A stretch of DNA of 20,525 nucleotides from a virus. A program made the translations under genes and the position numbers. Shown here in pieces: positions 5,398-18,049 of this stretch (positions within the stretch are counted from its first letter, which is position 1; every line of letters starts with the position of its first letter). Below the pieces are notes generated by a model that searched no databases, had not been told where the DNA came from, and worked only from the letters and a program-made list of their open reading frames with translations. The stretch spans positions 1-20,525 of the IMG/VR virus record IMGVR_UViG_3300034198_024627; one strand, 5' to 3'.

Positions 5398-5961
5398 ATG
5401 AGTACTCTGACTTCTGATCCGAAGTTCGCGCGAGGCCAGGTCCTCGGCATTCTGTGGAAGGCATACGACGCCGACAACGGCGATGGCACTAAGGTCATCG
5501 GCCAGCGAGTGACGTTTCTCGACGAGAGTCCGATCACGAAGCTGAAGCTGAGCAACCGCACGGTGGACTGCATCGCCGTGAAGAACGTGTCTGGGGGCAC
5601 GCTCGCCCCTGGGGCGATCGTGAAGTTCCGGGCCAACAACGGGACCACTGACGCAGGTGACGCCGGCCTTTCGCAGGTCGACGGCGTGGCTGCCAGCACC
5701 GACACCCTCTACGGTGTCGTCGATGAGTACCTCACGGCCAGCGTGCCGGATCAGGAGGTGTTCTGGCTCGTCGTGTCTGGGCCCAGCGTGGTGAAGAAGG
5801 TAACCGGCGCAATCTCCGCCAACGCCGCTCTGACGATCTCGTCAGCGACCGCCGGGTCGGCAGCTGCCGGCACGAGCCCGCTTCTCGGGTACGCCATCAA
5901 GGCGGCGGTCTCTGGTGACACCACGGTTCGCGTCCAGGTGTCCTCGCCAGTTCGCGGTTGA
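5398..5961 (+). CDS. Probable capsid decoration (head stabilising) protein
   Basis: A 187-residue protein with start ATG at 5398 and GGAAAGG at 5386-5392. After about 60 residues it becomes a beta-rich domain with the pattern NVSGGTLAPGAIVKF and later LYGVVDEYL, EVFWLVVSGP and LLGYAIKAAVSGD. This resembles DUF2190-like decoration proteins that bind the outer capsid surface. It lies 33 bases after the major capsid gene and is the last gene before a strong terminator, so it would be made in large amounts with the capsid protein. The C-terminal half is rich in Ala, Ser, Thr and Gly. An alternative is a head fibre base or another minor capsid protein. Confidence 0.65.
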   Translation: MSTLTSDPKFARGQVLGILWKAYDADNGDGTKVIGQRVTFLDESPITKLKLSNRTVDCIAVKNVSGGTLAPGAIVKFRANNGTTDAGDAGLSQVDGVAASTDTLYGVVDEYLTASVPDQEVFWLVVSGPSVVKKVTGAISANAALTISSATAGSAAAGTSPLLGYAIKAAVSGDTTVRVQVSSPVRG

Positions 5962-5984
5962 CGCAGGGAAAAGTGCGATTCGAG

Positions 5985-6023
5985 CCGGGCGCAAGGGCTG
6001 ATTCCCTTGCGCCCGGTTTTTTT
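5985..6023 (+). terminator. Strong intrinsic terminator after the capsid genes
   Basis: A perfect 13-bp inverted repeat (5985-5997 CCGGGCGCAAGGG with 6004-6016) with a 6-base loop is followed by seven T (6017-6023). This is a textbook rho-independent terminator for + strand transcription. It ends the highly expressed capsid unit and separates it from the packaging genes. The short gap to 6071 contains a TATACT at 6029-6034 that could be a -10 box, but no convincing -35 element. Confidence 0.94.
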
Positions 6024-6070
6024 ATGCCTATACTTGTCCCGGTTTCAGTTTCCCATCAGAGGAGATTCCC

Positions 6071-6271
6071 ATGTCATCCAATGAAGAGCAGGCCGACAAC
6101 CGCATCCGTGAAGGGGTCAAGTACTTTTCGGACCAGATGAGAAAGCTCGGATTTCTCGGCGACACGGTGTCAAATGTTGGAAGAGACCGAGAGGCTGGCC
6201 CAGACCCGGTGGTCGTCCTGAAAGACGGGATGGCCCCAATGGTCAAGACCGTCCCACAGGCCGACAGATGA
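6071..6271 (+). CDS. Small unknown protein at the head of the packaging operon
   Basis: A 66-residue protein with start ATG at 6071 preceded by AGAGGAG at about 6057-6063. It is a charged, soluble protein: a helical first half (ADNRIREGVKYFSDQMRKLGFLG) and a short C-terminal beta-like tail (PDPVVVLKDGMAPMVKTV). No domain is recognised. Its stop (6269-6271) overlaps the ATG of the next gene at 6268, so both are coupled. It is the first gene after the capsid terminator and could assist packaging, but no sequence feature supports a function. Confidence 0.65.
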   Translation: MSSNEEQADNRIREGVKYFSDQMRKLGFLGDTVSNVGRDREAGPDPVVVLKDGMAPMVKTVPQADR

Positions 6272-6918
6272 CGCCACCAGGCAAGCAGTGTCGAGAGTGC
6301 GGGGATTACTTCCCAGACAACGTCAATAACTTCAAGAAGAAGAAGGACGGCACTCTCGACACTCGCTGCTTGGCCTGCCGGCAGCGCGTAAACGCCGGAA
6401 AGCGCAAGAAGAAGCGCGTGGCGTACCTCAAGGATGTTGAGGTCGGCGCAGTTGGCAACTTTCTCCAGGTCGCCCAGTCGGGTGGCCAGAACATTCCGCA
6501 CTCCGCAGAGCTGCTTGAAAGGCTCATGGAGTACTTTGGCGGAACCAGCGGATTCTCAGCGCTCTTGGTCAAGCAGTTCTTCGACAGCCCCCCTGGAGGG
6601 GCTGCGAGGACAAAAATCCTTGAGACGATCGTGCGTCTTGTGACCAAGAACACCGATCAGGGCGGGGCCAAGAAGCCACTCACTCAGTGGAGTGAGGACG
6701 AGCTTGAGGCGGAGCTGGACGGCCGGCTGCGCGTTTTGGCTGCTGAGTTCCAAGGAAGGATCGTCGATGGCACGCTCGCGCAAGAAGCCTCAGGCCCCCC
6801 CGCCTCTCCCGTCAGTGAAGCGGATGAGCGGGTTCGCGATCAGCAAGATCAAGGAGATCCAGGCCGAACTGGCGGACCGCCGGATCGAGGCGCTGAAGCT
6901 CTACCGACCGACGCCTGA
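6268..6918 (+). CDS. Zinc-finger protein, candidate small terminase subunit
   Basis: A 216-residue protein with an N-terminal four-cysteine zinc ribbon: C8-x2-C11 and C34-x2-C37, with the familiar intervening pattern of a Phe followed by basic residues and DG (FKKKKDGTLDTRCLAC). A basic linker (GKRKKKR) and a helical middle region follow (about 60-165; GNFLQVAQSG, LLERLMEYFGG, LVKQFFDS, ILETIVRLVTK). The last 50 residues are disordered and overlap the start of TerL by 152 bases in another frame. Position immediately upstream of TerL and a DNA-binding-type finger make it the best small-terminase candidate, which would recognise packaging sites and regulate TerL. Zinc ribbons of this type also occur near phage endonucleases, so the role is not certain. 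Confidence 0.55.
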   Translation: MTPPGKQCRECGDYFPDNVNNFKKKKDGTLDTRCLACRQRVNAGKRKKKRVAYLKDVEVGAVGNFLQVAQSGGQNIPHSAELLERLMEYFGGTSGFSALLVKQFFDSPPGGAARTKILETIVRLVTKNTDQGGAKKPLTQWSEDELEAELDGRLRVLAAEFQGRIVDGTLAQEASGPPASPVSEADERVRDQQDQGDPGRTGGPPDRGAEALPTDA

Positions 6919-8467
6919 GCAGGCGAAGTACCACGAGTGCGTCGCCAGCGAAGTGCTTTTGATCGGCGGAAATCGTTCCGGGAAGTCGCTCTGCACGTTC
7001 GTGGAGGACGCCAGGGCTGCGACTGCGCAGGATCCTTTTAACAAGTACCCTACCGAGGGCGGCATCCTCATCATAGTGGGCCAGCACTGGGGCCACATCG
7101 GAAAGGTGGTGTATCCGTACCTGTTCCGAGCGGGCGCTTTCAAGATGATTCGCGATGCGAACACGGGGGATTGGCGGTGCTACAACCCGGAGACTGACGG
7201 TCACCGCAAGGCAGATGCCAAGCCCGCCCCTCCCCTCATTCCGCCGCGCCTGATCAAGACCATCTCCTGGCTGAACAAGGCTGAGCGCCAGATTCAGTCC
7301 TGCGAGCTCACCACTGGCTGGATCATCTACTTCTGCTCAAGCCAATCTGACCCCCTGCAGGGTGTTGCGGCCGACAGGGTCCACATCGACGAGGACATCG
7401 AGGGCGACGAGAACTGGGTGCCGGAGCTTCAGGCCCGACTCTCGGATCGCAAGGGGCGACTCCATTGGAGCGCCATGCCGCACTCAACAAACTTCGCTCT
7501 CTCTGGTCTGCACGACCGAGCCACCTCGGAGTCGGAGTTGGCAAAGGAGCACCCCGACATCGTCTGCTTCAAGCTCCGCTTCCTCGACAACCCTCACATC
7601 GATTCCGACGAGAAGCGAAAGCGCATCGAGGGCTGGTCGGCGCTCGGGGAGAACATTCTTCGCATGCGCAGCGAGGGGGACTTCATCTCGGAGTCCTATC
7701 TCTGCTACCCGACATTTCACATGGGCGTCCACGGGTACGACCGCAGCGATCTGCCAAAGCTGGTGGTTCCCGATGACTGGACCCGGTACATGATCGTGGA
7801 TCCTGGGCACTCGGTGGCCGCCGTCCTTTTCGCTGCCGTTCCGCCCGACGAGCAGATGCTTCTGATCTACGACGAGCTCTACATCCGGCAGTGCAACGCT
7901 GTGATTTTTGGCGAGCAAGTAGCCAGGCGCGCCATCGACCAGTCGTTCCATGCTTTCCTGATCGACATGCATGGAGGTCGCCTCCGAGACATCGGGTCTG
8001 GCCGGCTCCCCGTCGACCAATATTCCGAGCAGTTGCGCATGCGCAATGTGCGGAGTGCCACGACAGGAAACAGCTTCCTGGCGGCGTGCGACGACATCGA
8101 AGCCCGCATGACGGCTACGCAGAGCTACATGCACATCCGCCCGGAAGGAACGCCAAAGCTGCGGATTTTGCGCGGCGCATGTCCAAACCTGGAGCGCGAG
8201 ATGAAGCGCTACCGGAAGAAGACGGCCTACGTAGGCGGATCGCACGTGGTGCAGGACTCACCGAACACGAGGGGCGAGGTTCATGCCTGCCAGTGCTTGG
8301 AGTACATCTGCGCCTACAGGCCCCGCTACCACAAACCCAAGTTCGATCCTGGCCCTGACCCCTGGTACGTTGAGGTCGCGCGTCGTCGAAAGAAGCAGAT
8401 GCTTGGCGATTCCGACGGCAGCTTCATCTACCTCGGCCCCACTACAGGACGAAAGAATGTCAACTGA
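6767..8467 (+). CDS. terL: Terminase large subunit (packaging ATPase-nuclease)
   Basis: A 566-residue protein that powers DNA translocation into the procapsid and cuts the concatemer. I chose ATG 6767 because AAGGAAGGA (6752-6760) lies just before it; the in-frame ATG at 6824 has no comparable site. The ATPase domain shows a Walker A motif GGNRSGKS (residues 67-74) and a Walker B with catalytic acid, VHIDED (205-210; D208, E209). A probable coupling motif is SAMPHST (235-241). The nuclease domain begins near 340 with MIVDPGH (D345), followed by IYDELY (D369, E370) and FLIDMHGG (D400), fitting the RNase H-like acidic cluster. The length is normal. It overlaps the zinc-finger gene by 152 bases upstream and the next gene by 11 bases. 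Confidence 0.95.
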   Translation: MARSRKKPQAPPPLPSVKRMSGFAISKIKEIQAELADRRIEALKLYRPTPEQAKYHECVASEVLLIGGNRSGKSLCTFVEDARAATAQDPFNKYPTEGGILIIVGQHWGHIGKVVYPYLFRAGAFKMIRDANTGDWRCYNPETDGHRKADAKPAPPLIPPRLIKTISWLNKAERQIQSCELTTGWIIYFCSSQSDPLQGVAADRVHIDEDIEGDENWVPELQARLSDRKGRLHWSAMPHSTNFALSGLHDRATSESELAKEHPDIVCFKLRFLDNPHIDSDEKRKRIEGWSALGENILRMRSEGDFISESYLCYPTFHMGVHGYDRSDLPKLVVPDDWTRYMIVDPGHSVAAVLFAAVPPDEQMLLIYDELYIRQCNAVIFGEQVARRAIDQSFHAFLIDMHGGRLRDIGSGRLPVDQYSEQLRMRNVRSATTGNSFLAACDDIEARMTATQSYMHIRPEGTPKLRILRGACPNLEREMKRYRKKTAYVGGSHVVQDSPNTRGEVHACQCLEYICAYRPRYHKPKFDPGPDPWYVEVARRRKKQMLGDSDGSFIYLGPTTGRKNVN

Positions 8468-8774
8468 AGGCACTCCAGAAGTCGGCCTCGGCACGATGGT
8501 TCTCTACTACCGGGACCCGCAGAACCTGCGTGAGCCACAGCTGGGGATCATCAGCCAGCGCCCTGGCGCGCAGACGGTCACTATTTCGGTGATGACCGGA
8601 GCCGGATTCATCGAGAAGCCGAGCGTGCGCTACAAGGACGATCCGGGCCTGAAGGAAAACCCTGCTTGGCAGCAGTGGGGATGCTGGGATCTGACGGACA
8701 CCGAGAAAATGCTGCGGCGCGTGACCGGCCTGTCCGCCACGCTGATTGCCGCCAGCGAGCGGTCGAAGCGCTGA
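8457..8774 (+). CDS. Small conserved-type protein between terminase and portal
   Basis: A 105-residue protein with start ATG at 8457, AGGA at 8446-8449 before it, and an 11-base overlap with the end of TerL. The first half is beta-rich (GTMVLYYRDP, PQLGIISQRPGAQTVTISVM), suggesting a small barrel. The end carries a helical segment (WDLTDTEKMLRRVTG). Small genes at this place between terL and portal are frequent in short-tailed phages, and the pattern looks familiar, but I know of no function. It is soluble, without signal peptide or cysteine motif. Confidence 0.7.
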   Translation: MSTEGTPEVGLGTMVLYYRDPQNLREPQLGIISQRPGAQTVTISVMTGAGFIEKPSVRYKDDPGLKENPAWQQWGCWDLTDTEKMLRRVTGLSATLIAASERSKR

Positions 8775-8793
8775 CTGAAGCCCTGGGGGGATC

Positions 8794-10881
8794 ATGGAAA
8801 CTGCGGACCTCGACGAAAATCCGTTTGCCAATGGGCAGACGGGCGAGGATGTCTTGCGCGCGATCACTCGCGGGTGGCTCAAGAAGATTGAGCTCGCCGT
8901 GAAGCACAAGCGTCCGTTCGCGGAGGACGCGAGCGAGGCTATGGACTTTTTCGACGGCCCGCAGAACTGGTTCTGGCGCGACAGCTACTCCAAGAGCGAG
9001 TACGGCTACAACCGATCGATCTCTCCCCCTGGCTTCCGGATGCAGGTCAATCGCGTTTTTGAGGCAGTGAAGCTCTTCGCGAGCGTGATCTATCACCGGA
9101 ACCCGGTTCGCACGGTCTCGCCCAAGAAGTTTCCGTTCGTGCCGCCGGACCTTCTTGGCGTGACGCCAGACAACATGCCGGCGGTCCAGCAGTACCAGAT
9201 GGCCGCCCAGCAGACGATGCAGCAAGACGGCGTCCGGCAGCTGGTCTCCCAGCTTCTCGACAAGCTCCTGAACTTCACGCCCGAGGCTCTCAACCTCAAG
9301 ACCCACAGTCGTCGCGTCGTTGACGAGGCGATCATCAAGGGGGCTGGGGTGTGGTGGACGGAGATGGTGACTGACCCTGGCACAGGCCAGAAGTTCGTCG
9401 GCAGCTTTGCCGACACCATCGACGGACTTCTCCTCGACCCGGATGCCCTTGAGATCGAGGACATCACCTGGTGCGCCAGGAAGTGCTGCCATCCGATCGA
9501 CGTCGTGGCAGAGCAGTACGGCGTCCCTCGCGAGGACCTTCAGAAGACGCTGCGCAATGTGGTGAACGCCAGATCGGCAGAGGTCCGCGAACTGGGGCTC
9601 TACAACGATGAGAGCCGAAACCCGCAGAAGCGAATCGGGAAGACAAACGACCTCGTCACCTACTGGCGGATCTACTCCAAGACCGGGTTCGGAGATCGCC
9701 TCAAAGACGTTTCGTCGGATTACCGTGGAACCTTCGATTCGCTCGGGCAGAACTGCTACATCGTCGTCGTCGAGGGCTTGGACTACCCACTGAACGTCAA
9801 GCCAGAGATGTTGAACGAGCCCGTGGACCCTCAGGCCGGGACTGCGCCGAACCTCTTCTCGTCTGTGCAGTGGCCTATTCCTTTCTGGGGCGAGGCGTCT
9901 GGGTGGCCGTTCACCATGCTCTCGTTTCACCGCAAGCCCGGCTACGTGTGGCCGATCAGCCATGTCAAGCCCGCCATCCCGGAGCTTCGGTTCCTTTGCT
10001 GGGCTTTCTCGTTTCTCGCCCAGCGCGTCGCAATCAGCTGTGAGACGCTGGTTGGCGTGAGCAAGGCTGCCGACCAGGACGTCAAGGATCAGATCCTGAG
10101 CCAGTCGCAGGCTGGGTTCAAGATCGTTGAGCTGAGCGAGATGGTAGGCCGCAGCGTCAACGACCTGATCAGCGTGTTTCAGCTTCCAGACCTGAGTCCG
10201 GAGATCTGGAAAGTCATCCAGGCCGTCACCGAGATGCTTGAGAAGCGTCTTGGTCTGACCGAGCTGGTGTACGGCCTGACCAACAAGCAAATGCGATCGG
10301 CCACGGAGGCGTCAGTCCGGTCTGAACAGATCTCGATTCGACCCGACGACATGGCTGAGTGCGTCGAGAATGCGATGACGGAGATCGCCCGCAAGGAAGC
10401 GATGGCTTCCAGGTGGCTCCTAGAGCCAGACGATGTCGCTCCGATCCTTGGCCCTGTGGGTGCTGCCGCGTGGGCGATGCACGTGGCATCCATGGACGTC
10501 TCTGCGGTGGGAAATGAGTTCGATTACCGGATTGAGGCAGGCAGCGCTCGGAAGCCCAACAAGCAGACCAGAATCGAGCAGATGCAGTCGGCGCTCCAGA
10601 ACCTGGGGCCTGTTCTGTCGAATCTGATTGGTGCTGGCGTTGTTGATCCGTTCAACGCGCTCATCAAGGACTGGGCAGAGTCGATGGACCTCGACGCCAC
10701 GCCATACCTCGTTCCGCCGCCTCCTCCGCCCCCCATGATGCCACCGCCTGGGCCGCCTGGCCCGCCTCAAAGTGGCGCTCCACAAGGGCAGGAAGGCCCG
10801 CCTCCTGGCCCAGAACAGGGGCCGCCGCCTGACGCAGGGCCGCCTCCCAACCTTCCGCAGATTCCCCAGGAGATGCAGTAA
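8794..10881 (+). CDS. Portal protein (head-tail connector) with polyproline tail
   Basis: A 695-residue protein that would form the dodecameric DNA gate at one capsid vertex. Start ATG 8794 follows a G-run (8785-8790). The N-terminal wing region contains YNRSISPPGFRMQVNRVFE and the stretch LFASVIYHRNPVR typical of portals; the central part has beta-rich clip and crown-like regions (VDEAIIKGAGVWWTEM, DPDALEIEDITWCAR). The stem/tunnel region includes LTELVYGLTNKQMRSATEAS (about 487-506). The C-terminus has GAAAWAMHVASMDVSAVGNEF and a helical region. The last 55 residues (about 641-695) are roughly half Pro, with Gly and Gln, and are not typical. Size is that of large podovirus-type portals. It follows the terminase genes and precedes neck genes. 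Confidence 0.88.
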   Translation: METADLDENPFANGQTGEDVLRAITRGWLKKIELAVKHKRPFAEDASEAMDFFDGPQNWFWRDSYSKSEYGYNRSISPPGFRMQVNRVFEAVKLFASVIYHRNPVRTVSPKKFPFVPPDLLGVTPDNMPAVQQYQMAAQQTMQQDGVRQLVSQLLDKLLNFTPEALNLKTHSRRVVDEAIIKGAGVWWTEMVTDPGTGQKFVGSFADTIDGLLLDPDALEIEDITWCARKCCHPIDVVAEQYGVPREDLQKTLRNVVNARSAEVRELGLYNDESRNPQKRIGKTNDLVTYWRIYSKTGFGDRLKDVSSDYRGTFDSLGQNCYIVVVEGLDYPLNVKPEMLNEPVDPQAGTAPNLFSSVQWPIPFWGEASGWPFTMLSFHRKPGYVWPISHVKPAIPELRFLCWAFSFLAQRVAISCETLVGVSKAADQDVKDQILSQSQAGFKIVELSEMVGRSVNDLISVFQLPDLSPEIWKVIQAVTEMLEKRLGLTELVYGLTNKQMRSATEASVRSEQISIRPDDMAECVENAMTEIARKEAMASRWLLEPDDVAPILGPVGAAAWAMHVASMDVSAVGNEFDYRIEAGSARKPNKQTRIEQMQSALQNLGPVLSNLIGAGVVDPFNALIKDWAESMDLDATPYLVPPPPPPPMMPPPGPPGPPQSGAPQGQEGPPPGPEQGPPPDAGPPPNLPQIPQEMQ

Positions 10882-16000: not shown

Positions 16001-16042
16001 ATCGTGTACGGCATTGATGCCGCAGGGACTGGGGGCCGCTGA
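13016..16042 (+). CDS. Large tail nozzle-like protein with G-x-G-Y repeats
   Basis: A 1008-residue protein, the largest here. The middle (about 412-770) fits a tail nozzle/tubular protein B: KYLCYYRYID, FFLDDLTDDELRN, DRYWYGVDTSGREMNTVYYSE, then ALAPVNNTLLMFQERHAFAL, CMGQQCWDIYDGVIFALDQTGVYSI (residues 631-655) and a C-terminal beta part; this propeller-like pattern (variable loops around repeated strands) forms the distal part of short tails. Inserted at 76-137, 293-303, 338-397 and 783-840 are copies of a G-x-G-Y-x-x-x-P-x-V motif, for example GGGYKTPPTV (387-396) and GAGYKTPPTV (791-800). Such repeats are common in phage tail and fibre proteins. It follows the adaptor and precedes a tail-associated gene. 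Its role in DNA passage or host contact is inferred. Confidence 0.78.
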   Translation: MALPAFSAAKGITVTTGPNNELIVVQGGVRGRRWTGQESKEFVPLGVDAPTVAPTVIADPGAPDGYYIARVDVTKGGYCYNAPPVVTINSTPAIGTVTGGVEASAIAYLNQSSVAEIRVQKSGKYYPAPPTITLSSTCGTGAVLTAELDIPVGAGYDATNDPLTGITQWEIIQAPTYLDEAGEVSDPLIWYRAFNGTVNISATNGTALTNPRPTNYQLPTGTNWDSAITCSSTGASPATLVVSGDTRTGQAAKIKLTFAGARWVCSYAPAGGQALNHWRGARQLLSVAPGKFGSGYDPNTTVVVRIRANQSSSNTENDILIYGYPTGNDNNTQARGYPIKNIAITNPGSGYTVAPVIQITSKSGFGAVATCEVANGQIVSVKLVNNGGGYKTPPTVEALSGKAEAFPVARPHLRGKYLCYYRYIDDTAVEFGGPFPSSLSPPTVFDAENGKSRIRWTVAYPNGQGRPKAVELWRTTSNQGITLYRVSTQLASASFFLDDLTDDELRNPDRAGYAAMPILLPNGELCANRFAIPPDNKDVVVRFQDRYWYGVDTSGREMNTVYYSEVDEPESVPSINQIVLQQSSRDADRITALAPVNNTLLMFQERHAFALSFASNPVFDAQVQPIAFRGCMGQQCWDIYDGVIFALDQTGVYSISLNGSVEDLSAPIANLISDQLDVLNGSRNFLTIDQKTLTLRAFVSFKSDRATSSGTDATPTRALCYSLRTKSWFMEKYPQKVRAATAGKLALATGAFPPSDVRNIYACESGLVVLNEGSADLARGAVTSVRLTNRGAGYKTPPTVTASGGVGAEFQSVTNDSGEVTAIIIRNPGRGYSSGTLTISAPNDPSFASPVAATATYTATSTTADTPLYIPYRMKTGCAAYVDDSEDPKAAAAQSRQIRVAYKPLAVSSPLAMRLYYNNAKDPRRNLATRVRGTGFAFSSVDSSARIDLGGNMIKSGADDGVAGAVLSGRTIDDINADRNVAVEISGARTGPEPVIVYGIDAAGTGGR

Positions 16043-17058
16043 TGTTCGACGCGTCTAGGATTGCCGCGATTCTTCGCTCCTGTGGCGTTCCAATGCGGCA
16101 GGCGGCGGAGCTTGCAGGCGTTTTGGGAGGGCGCCGGCAAAAGCTCAAGACAGGCGGCGGCTTGGAGCAGGACACCACCCCAAGCGACCTGCGCGAAGTG
16201 ACTCCCAGCGCACGGAGGCACCACCTCACCAATCTGGATTTTCGCAGGGGGGATCCGGACTACCGGCCTTCAAAGATCGACGATTCCGAGCGCCGGCGGC
16301 AGGCACAGCCTGATCCGGCAATCAAAACTGTGTCTGCGCCTCAGGAGACCGACTCCTCGTACAACCTTGTCGATGGGGCCTATACGTCGGTGGTGGCGGC
16401 CGACGGGGCTGTGGCGGTCAACCTGGCCGTTCAGGGCAGCGGACGGGCAATGATGCTCGACCCTCCGAGCAACTCGATCGTTGGAAAGACGCTTCGCTGC
16501 GAGGCCGGAGGCGGCGGCGCCAACCAAAACCTTGTCAGGTTTTTCATCGACGAAACAGGGCAAGAGGTTGTCTGGAAGCTGATGCTGGCGATCGATCGCA
16601 TCCCAATCGTCACCGACATTCGGTACCGCATTGGTCGCGGGATCGAGTACACGAGGCGGACGGCTGCCGTTTTCCTTGACCCGGCAGATCAATTCGAGCG
16701 AAAAGTTGTTCCGTTCAAGCAGCAGGAAGTGGTGTCTTCCCTCGACAAGAACGACGCCAACACTTCTCTCATCGCGACCAAGATTAAGGTGGACGTTCCG
16801 GCGACAGAGAACTTTGAGACAGACACGTTTTCTTTTGGTGGATCCGCCGACGCCGTTCTCTGCAAGACCACTTCCGCCTGGGCGAAGGGCTCATCCGCCA
16901 CGCCTCAGATCTGGGCCGGCGTGCCGGGAAGCGAGACGAACACTGGTACGACGATCTCGGCGTATAACCGATACGCCTCAATTCCCACCGGAAAGTTCTG
17001 CACGGTGATGCTGCACCGTAGCGGGTATTACTACGTAATCGCTGCGGAGTGCTCGTGA
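16042..17058 (+). CDS. Tail-associated protein, function unknown
   Basis: A 338-residue protein whose ATG overlaps the stop of the nozzle gene (TGATG at 16040-16044). A short helical N-terminus (FDASRIAAILRSCGVPMRQAA) and a charged linker are followed by a beta-rich region with YNLVDGAYTSVVAADG (about 105-120), YRIGRGIEYTRR and later TGTTISAYNRY and FCTVMLHRSGYYYVIAAECS at the end. I recall similar C-termini ending in a Tyr/Val-Ala-Glu-Cys pattern in uncharacterised phage proteins near tail genes. Position right after the nozzle gene, with coupling, suggests a virion protein at the tail tip or a fibre-anchoring protein. No enzyme motif is seen. Confidence 0.68.
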   Translation: MFDASRIAAILRSCGVPMRQAAELAGVLGGRRQKLKTGGGLEQDTTPSDLREVTPSARRHHLTNLDFRRGDPDYRPSKIDDSERRRQAQPDPAIKTVSAPQETDSSYNLVDGAYTSVVAADGAVAVNLAVQGSGRAMMLDPPSNSIVGKTLRCEAGGGGANQNLVRFFIDETGQEVVWKLMLAIDRIPIVTDIRYRIGRGIEYTRRTAAVFLDPADQFERKVVPFKQQEVVSSLDKNDANTSLIATKIKVDVPATENFETDTFSFGGSADAVLCKTTSAWAKGSSATPQIWAGVPGSETNTGTTISAYNRYASIPTGKFCTVMLHRSGYYYVIAAECS

Positions 17059-17615
17059 TGCTGTTGCCAGGCTGCCAGTGTTGCGGTACGTCTCCGTGCC
17101 CAGAGTGTCGGCACTACACGGTTGACACGTTTGACAACAGCCTTACCGCTACTGTCACAATAAACGGCTACAGCATTCCGGTGTATACAGGAGACTTTTT
17201 TCCTGAATACGAATACCTGAGTATTCCATCAGAAGTGCAGTCCAATTGCTTTGTTGGTTATGAGAATCCTAAGCGAGCCGGCTTTTATGCGGAGTTCCAG
17301 GCAGATAGTGCTTTCAGGGAATACTTCGAGGTATCTGGGTGCCCAAGCGTTCGAGTGTTGCTAAGGATTTACGTTGTTCTCCCAGAATCTCAGTACTATG
17401 GCCCAAACAGCAGGCTTGCGCTTCAAATAGAAGGGTACGATATTCCAGCAAACTGCACCGACACCGGCGGGACAGCCACCACATCGCAGTCGTGGTATTT
17501 CTGGGGCAACGACCAATTTGTAGACGAGAACTGCACAATTGCTTTGCTCGACTGGCTTAGCACGCTGACCGTGGTCACTACATTTGCGTTTGACCCTTGC
17601 GAGTGCCCACCATGA
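17058..17615 (+). CDS. AT-rich Cys-framed protein, probably acquired
   Basis: A 185-residue protein starting at ATG 17058, which overlaps the previous stop; in-frame GTG codons at 17049 and 17055 are less likely. The N-terminus MLLPGCQCCGTSPCPEC has five Cys in the first 17 residues, and the protein ends DPCECPP, so both ends are Cys-rich. Four further single Cys lie between. The body is beta-rich and aromatic (YTVDTFDNSLTATVTING, VRVLLRIYVVLPES, TSQSWYFWGNDQF). Counting 17161-17460 by hand gives about 47% GC, whereas a sampled stretch of the next gene is about 62%. The codon use (TTT, ATA, TAT) also differs. No family is recognised; tail tip, adhesin-like or carbohydrate-binding roles are possible. 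Confidence 0.7.
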   Translation: MLLPGCQCCGTSPCPECRHYTVDTFDNSLTATVTINGYSIPVYTGDFFPEYEYLSIPSEVQSNCFVGYENPKRAGFYAEFQADSAFREYFEVSGCPSVRVLLRIYVVLPESQYYGPNSRLALQIEGYDIPANCTDTGGTATTSQSWYFWGNDQFVDENCTIALLDWLSTLTVVTTFAFDPCECPP

Positions 17616-18049
17616 CCGACCCGGTCAAGCTGTCGCGGCAAGCGGTTGCATCGTTCGCGGCAAAGCGAAAGCCGGGCTACGAATCCGCGTTGATTGCCGC
17701 CGCCGTCTCCTCTGATGAACGGTCCGTGACGATCACGCGCGTCGACTACGACCGGCTCCGAGACGAGTTTGCGTTGGCCTGCGGCCCTGGCTGCCAACTC
17801 CGCCGCTCGCTGGCATGGTTGAGAATCCGCGACGACGGCTCCTGTGGCTGCAATTCCTACGCTGCGCAGATGGACGCCTGGGGGCCCGACGAGTGCCTCC
17901 GGCGAATCGAAGAGATCGTCGAGCACCTGCGGCAAGCCGCCGAGAAGAGGGGATTGATCTTCAACGAACTCGCCGCCCGCCAGCTTGTTCGGGTCGCCTG
18001 CGGTCTGGCTCGGAGGAACGCCCGCAAAGTGGCCTCCGAGGGGACATAA
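17612..18049 (+). CDS. Cys-motif small protein common in aquatic-type phages
   Basis: A 145-residue protein starting at ATG 17612, overlapping the previous stop (ATGA). It has a Cys pattern C57-x3-C61, C78-x-C80, C95, in the context ACGPGC...DDGSCGC...WGPDEC, and then a helix (LRRIEEIVEHLRQAAEKRG) leading to ARQLVRVACGLARRNAR. I recognise this arrangement (CPGC-like, DDG-x-C-x-C, W-G-x-x-x-C, EEAKKRGL-like, AR-LVR-AI) as a recurring small uncharacterised family of phages and some bacteria, from memory and without a named domain. The cysteines could bind zinc or a metal cluster. GC returns to the level of the rest of the genome here. Confidence 0.72.
   Translation: MTDPVKLSRQAVASFAAKRKPGYESALIAAAVSSDERSVTITRVDYDRLRDEFALACGPGCQLRRSLAWLRIRDDGSCGCNSYAAQMDAWGPDECLRRIEEIVEHLRQAAEKRGLIFNELAARQLVRVACGLARRNARKVASEGT

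Follow-up and report, generated by a model that had tools for sequence, protein, structure and literature searches.

A fixed slot among the tail genes of uncultivated GC-rich phages holds mostly low-GC genes with cysteine-cluster N-termini and varying bodies

Gene organization and base composition of the locus

The window, that is, the whole stretch of 20,525 bases analysed here, corresponds with zero mismatches to positions 22539-43063 of a 60-kb IMG/VR contig (60,089 bases). The genes on the + strand are arranged in the order terminase, portal, a possible tail protein, a 1008-aa protein, a 338-aa protein (hereafter the upstream protein), the gene under study (slot gene), and a gene encoding a GPGCQL motif. 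The terminase matched PHROG 2 (E 1.5e-11) and the portal matched PHROG 156 (E 4.6e-6), with a Pfam SU10 portal match under its cut-off; the match of the possible tail protein to PHROG 6013 was weak (E 0.017). Tail-fibre and baseplate matches were obtained for the 1008-aa protein in the PHROGs/Pfam search, and the same search gave no match for the upstream protein, the slot protein, or the downstream GPGCQL protein. When cultured phages were searched, the terminase matched 8 Arthrobacter phage records at 21-22%, and the 1008-aa protein matched 173 phage records, 169 of which were Synechococcus phages or cyanophages, over 8-20% of the length among the 20 matches listed. No match in cultured phages was found for the slot protein at E up to 1, or for the upstream protein, two versions of the downstream protein, and a slot protein of another body type (type B, see below).

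The slot gene (17058..17615, + strand; coding part 17058-17612) encodes a protein of 185 aa with 11 Cys. Its start is likely the ATG at 17058, with the GTG at 17049 as the alternative, and not a position near 17110 as given in a first-pass annotation of the window. This ATG overlaps the stop of the upstream gene as TGATG (17056..17060, + strand), and the overlap was present in 13 of the 14 loci printed, the exception being L005; translational coupling of the two genes is suggested at this point. A GGAG located 8 bases 5' of the ATG (17046..17049, + strand), within the codons for ...AAEC of the upstream protein, is likely the ribosome-binding site as judged from the sequence, and GCGGAG and CGGAG were seen upstream of the start in 11 and 13 of these 14 loci, respectively. 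The next gene likely starts at ATG 17612, which overlaps the stop of the slot gene as ATGA.

The N-terminal part of the slot gene (17058..17114, + strand) encodes the Cys cluster MLLPGCQCCGTSPCPECRH, followed by a body (17115..17612, + strand) that ends with PCECPP. The Cys-rich ends described in the first-pass annotation were thus seen at both termini, as MLLPGCQCCG...CPEC and ...PCECPP. Its description of the protein as beta-rich agrees with the AlphaFold model, which is itself of low confidence (pLDDT 62, two-row alignment); the slot protein is probably beta-rich according to this model.

A GC content of about 47% had been reported for 17161-17460, and the recount gave 0.467, the lowest value among the 300-base windows of the slot gene, compared with 0.656 for the gene downstream. 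The drop was said to begin after about 50 native bases, and indeed the first 57 bases had a native GC of 0.632 and the remainder 0.494. The slot gene as a whole (17058-17612) showed a GC of 0.508 and a GC3 of 0.56, and the 17 other genes of the window showed 0.624 and 0.76, respectively. When the contig was scanned in 555-base windows with 5-base steps (60,000 of 60,089 bases), the slot gene was the GC minimum (0.506), the lowest value elsewhere being 0.530 and the mean 0.616 (sd 0.023). If its amino acids were encoded with native codons, the gene would be expected to have a GC of 0.582 ± 0.011, and 0 of 5000 simulations were as low as the observed value. Therefore, about one-third of the drop is ascribed to amino-acid composition and about two-thirds to synonymous codon choice. 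These results confirmed that an unusually low-GC gene does lie among the tail genes, and not by chance. The second-lowest GC stretch of the 60-kb contig (L065) is located at about 6485-7100 (0.530), where no long gene was called.

Slot genes of related phages

Related loci (L numbers) and phage records (G numbers) were collected by searches with the neighbouring proteins, which gave 16 loci for the upstream query and 29 loci for the downstream query, the window's contig included; a type-B query gave 75 loci. An ORF occupied the slot in all 26 loci with a downstream homolog, and the Cys cluster was present in all 22 readable N-termini; the 26 loci were drawn from 31 besides the window's own copies, with L019 (window's contig), L024, L025, L040, and L042 omitted. 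The sole full-length relative of the window's slot protein found outside its own contig was that of L020 (38%). Of two scans of genome contigs, the first gave no relative and the second gave one (41%) on a contig binned as a Porticoccaceae MAG, which is perhaps itself a phage. At L064, a Porticoccaceae MAG contig, the slot (7153-7737) encodes a protein with an MSLLTMLCCC start and a long serine-rich stretch, and a GPGTEL gene follows directly.

In the related uncultivated phages, the Cys-cluster N-terminus is joined to one of at least five bodies (A to E), plus a truncated F found as one gene. Body A occurs in the window and L020, body B (342-376 aa) in many loci, and body C, with GLITYNG, in L004, L027, and L041. 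Type D has a hydrophobic start and then LPGCxCC, and body E, in L029, L044, and the fragment L021, is of the choice-of-anchor R kind. The hydrophobic start, MLAEI...MYPLG[FL][ML]LPGC, is conserved in seven type-D proteins (L006, L007, L008, L009, L010, L011, and L015); it carries no positive charges and is similar to a membrane anchor or a lipobox. L072, which derives from a related phage, encodes at the corresponding slot (5737-7533) a 598-aa protein with 75 Cys, and the GC of this gene is near-native.

The slot gene was below its flanks in GC at 34 of 34 loci including the window (mean 0.568 vs 0.655), and in a larger type-B set at 45 of 45 (0.584 vs 0.667); the two sets overlap in many shared contigs and the loci are related, so these counts do not represent independent events. 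The 34-locus set includes the duplicates L024 and L012, the near-duplicate L040, and the truncated genes L005 and L017, and omits the too-short L013, L014, and L018, the fragments lacking the N-terminus (L021, L031, L033, L035, and L045), L046, and the distant L064, L072, and L073. Across these 34 loci, the first 57 bases averaged 0.621 and the remainder 0.562, the remainder being lower in 32 of them. All low-GC slot genes counted belong to GC-rich phages. In the distant phages G016 and G017, the Cys-rich slot genes (31 and 75 Cys) had GC values of 0.640 and 0.621 within stretches of 0.648 and 0.631, respectively, indicating that a low-GC body is not universal in the slot.

The first-pass annotation had interpreted the low GC as indicating a foreign gene. 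Since low GC recurs in the slot genes of relatives, it is not the mark of a single recent foreign import, and this part of the annotation was not supported. An ortholog of the same composition in all relatives, which the annotation had named as evidence against its view, was found by half: the slot and its low GC recur, but the body differs. If a low-GC gene had recently been acquired from an unrelated source, whatever its function, the strong local deviation in GC and codons and the replacement of a block relative to L004 (see below) would be accounted for. We nevertheless disfavour this explanation as very improbable, because the slot genes of GC-rich phages are consistently low in GC and because the GC in the flanks of L006, L016, and L020, the relatives of parts of the block, is 0.64-0.68. 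In view of the recurrence in both sets, we reject it as an account of the GC drop. In this phage group, the body of the slot gene is repeatedly low in GC, in the window mostly at synonymous sites; as a guess, the low GC might derive from a shared pool of bodies or from weak codon selection. A local GC drop beside tail genes thus need not signal recent import.

Block exchange and pairing with the upstream gene

The upstream gene (16042..17058, + strand) encodes an N-terminal part of 200 aa belonging to the backbone and a C-terminal part of 76 aa belonging to an exchanged block. In comparison with the closest relative, L004, 159 of 200 residues were identical in aa 1-200 and 33 of 76 in aa 263-338. 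The latter region was identical at 58-62 of 76 residues to L005, L006, L007, L008, L010, L011, and L016; the upstream ORFs of these seven loci are shorter than that of the window and bear no relation to it elsewhere. This C-terminal domain (class I; 16828..17055, + strand) ends with YYYVIAAECS, and its DNA showed 75-88% identity to L006 and L016 from about 16880. The downstream gene (17597..18049, + strand; likely start ATG 17612) encodes a GPGCQL...CGC domain, and aa 1-131 of its product were identical to L020 at 101 of 131 residues; the last 19 aa (132-150), which represent the backbone, were identical to L004 at 15 residues and to L020 at 3.

These protein identities, together with sliding DNA identities to L004, L006, L016, and L020, indicate that a block of about 1.1-1.4 kb was replaced in an L004-like backbone. 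The outer limits of the block are 16582..17990 (+ strand), the left junction lying between about 16582 and 16880 and the right junction at about 17960-17990. The block had no single best donor: its upstream end was nearest to class I loci, and the body and the downstream part were nearest to L020, a class II locus. Within type B, L032 and L047 shared 95-100% DNA identity per 60 bases in the second part of the gene and 51-75% in the first part, and in L139 a type-E N-terminus was joined to a type-B body (partial gene). The cassette directly after the tail genes that the first-pass annotation had proposed is therefore well supported as an exchangeable one: a block was replaced relative to L004, gene content varies at a fixed place, and three slot bodies in relatives match a surface-type domain (see below).

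The dN/dS values within body types were 0.10-0.28 in ten comparisons, in which the window-L020 pair was near synonymous saturation, and selection within body types is purifying. The description of the gene as fast-changing accordingly holds for block exchange but not for point change; the slot gene encodes a working protein that changes by the former and not by the latter. The low dN/dS would also suit a tail protein that serves in structure or decoration, has no receptor role, and varies neutrally. We consider such a protein distinctly unlikely, as outer parts were repeatedly exchanged between conserved ends, a pattern that selection on recognition would often leave. No sign of a diversity-generating retroelement was seen: reverse transcriptase PF00078 was found in 0 of 4 related phage records (possibly incomplete), and the control was found in 3 of 14 genomes.

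The N-terminus of the slot protein was paired with the C-terminal class of the upstream protein. Among 33 non-identical loci (35 given, the identical L024 and L012 dropped), LPGCxCC was found at all 11 class I loci, LGGxxxCxxCxC at all 16 class II loci (the N-terminus of L046 read by eye), and GLITYNG at all 3 class III loci; L037, L029, and L044 had no class. In the type-B set, in which 61 of the 75 loci were kept after 14 identical proteins had been dropped, class II occurred with its motif in 41 of 47, the other 6 being variants or cut starts, and class I with its motif in 2 of 2. A further upstream class ending in QGEC was paired with MKGGFGCSPCC in 3 of 3; three other loci were unclassed and six had no readable upstream part. 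All these counts come from related loci and are not independent. Bodies A and B were found behind both class I and class II, and class I ends precede bodies A, B, and D. The pairing is as expected of a plug and a socket, but linkage would produce an identical pattern where the junction directly follows the N-terminus.

The downstream gene belongs to a family with a GPGxxL...CxC...MDxWG domain, which in many relatives is preceded by a CxxC...C stretch that is zinc-ribbon-like by eye; this family gave no family match. All 47 type-B slot genes with 400 bases or more of 3' sequence were followed by the GPGxxL gene. Of the 17 records searched, 12 contained it, and no match was obtained in the distant G015 and G016 or in the type-D records G003, G004, and G005, where a different gene with Cys residues occupies this position. 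Its presence in 12 of 17 records and its absence behind type-D genes indicate that it is a frequent, not a fixed, companion of the slot. At L006 (6646-6951), L008 (7001-7333), and L010 (6479-6784), a small gene encoding CRACGH...C and GDALxW follows the type-D slot in place of the GPGxxL gene. The GPGxxL domain of L064 lies inside a 405-aa protein (7728-8945), and the genes beside it are presumably glycosyltransferase-like.

Proposed role of the slot protein

We attempted to assign the slot protein to a family. The window protein matched no family in PHROGs, Pfam, or NCBIfam (best PHROG E 0.038) and had no PDB sequence match beyond chance (best E 0.17). A Foldseek search against the PDB gave no match at E<=0.001 for the window model or a type-B model (type-B best 0.014), both models being of low confidence, and a VIA fold search with these low-confidence models reached a best Z of 5.0 among unrelated folds. 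A literature search yielded no paper on this slot system and no Cys-rich tail-tip adhesin, which is no proof of absence. The choice-of-anchor R domain is typical of anchored surface proteins. This domain (NCBIfam NF041539) was detected in the slot bodies of L021, L029, and L044 (E 1.4e-10 to 8.4e-7); with a cut-off of 30, the scores of L021 (41.4) and L044 (38.6) pass and that of L029 (29.1) is just below. The window protein, with body A, showed no match to NF041539. No membership of the window protein in gp38, Tfa, or choice-of-anchor R is claimed.

The features seen directly are the fixed slot, the gene overlaps, the Cys-cluster N-termini, the variable bodies, the block exchange with its junctions in the neighbour genes and just behind the N-terminus, the pairing of N-terminus and upstream C-terminus, and the purifying selection within body types. 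We propose, with about an even chance of being right, that the slot gene encodes a small receptor-binding adhesin at the tip of a tail appendage encoded upstream, the Cys-rich N-terminus docking and the body recognising the host. The upstream protein would be the fibre, as suggested by gene order, the neighbours, and its exchanged C-terminus. In the virion, the N-terminus of about 20 aa, perhaps stabilised by metal or disulfides, would dock on the C-terminal domain of the upstream protein, and the body would serve as an exchangeable head that binds the receptor and bears on host range. The adhesin would then cap the tip of the appendage and work like T2-type gp38. A broader form of this proposal, to which we give somewhat less than an even chance, is a plug-and-socket system in differing backbones, in which the flavour of the Cys-rich plug would match the socket formed by the C-terminus of the tail protein encoded before it, and heads A to E, including choice-of-anchor R, would be traded on a tip adhesin. 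Several observations count against an adhesin: the window protein gave no match beyond chance in the family, cultured-phage, and PDB sequence searches and lacks gp38-type Gly-rich motifs, the pairing with the upstream gene may reflect linkage among loci that are not independent, the slot genes of G016 and G017 have near-native GC, the surface-type domain matches are confined to three relatives and exclude the window protein, and the hydrophobic stretch before LPGC in the seven type-D proteins is odd for a protein at the tip.

That hydrophobic start, followed by lipobox-like LPGC, would fit a protein of the membrane or cell surface that is produced in the infected cell, e.g., for superinfection exclusion, and whose gene is sited among the tail genes. 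We regard this explanation as quite improbable, since types A and B have no hydrophobic stretch by eye, the window start MLLPGC is too short for a signal peptide, the start of the type-D proteins lacks both Lys and Arg, and the slot gene overlaps a tail gene.

The gene for T2-type gp38 lies directly behind the fibre gene. The slot gene lies directly 3' of a tail gene, with the TGATG overlap, and this upstream gene is a candidate fibre gene by its order and neighbours. According to the accessible text of one report, T2-type gp38 is located at the tip of gp37 and contacts it with its N-terminus, and chimeric gp38 with a matching N-terminus restored plaques, whereas unmatched gp38 failed (PMC12892980). 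The gp38 of T2, S16, and PP01 is described in the same text as a separate small tip protein whose N-terminus fits the fibre end and whose variable outer part sets the receptor (PMC12892980); the slot protein would resemble it in these respects, with a presumed location at the tip. In contrast, no sequence or profile relation to gp38 was detected in PHROGs, Pfam, or cultured phages, and gp38 has poly-glycine II helices, whereas the slot family combines Cys-cluster N-termini with varied bodies; gp38-type Gly-rich motifs were not seen by eye in the window protein (Gly 6.5%).

The main rival to the tip adhesin is a fibre-assembly chaperone of the Tfa, T4 gp38, or Alteromonas phage cap type, which would fold or transiently cap the upstream protein and be exchanged with the fibre end. 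The position directly after a tail gene and the exchange along with the upstream C-terminus fit such a chaperone. T4 gp38 is the chaperone of gp37 in the accessible text of PMC12892980, and that of PMC10579305 describes Alteromonas phages of distant families with a common fibre and downstream chaperone module. The slot would be like the module of Alteromonas phages A5, V22, and P24 as a recognition module common to distant backbones (PMC10579305, accessible text), but unlike in that module, the downstream gene here begins with a Cys cluster and varies fully within a single fibre-end class. Wholly different bodies (A, B, and D) behind class I are unexpected for the chaperone of one fibre end; moreover, three slot bodies match an annotated surface-type domain, and no chaperone-family profile match was obtained in PHROGs, Pfam, or NCBIfam. 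Taken together, we judge a chaperone to be rather unlikely.

If the tip-adhesin proposal is true, the slot would allow host recognition to be read from sequence in a set of uncultivated GC-rich phages; no close cultured relatives of these phages were found. Heads could then be catalogued from sequence, and plug-socket matching would predict which head fits which phage. What makes the locus interesting is the fixed slot and its exchangeable heads rather than the GC drop.

After the tail cassette, at 42690-55276 of the 60-kb contig (in L067), three long proteins free of Cys (2194, 798, and 1193 aa) are encoded, which are perhaps internal virion proteins.
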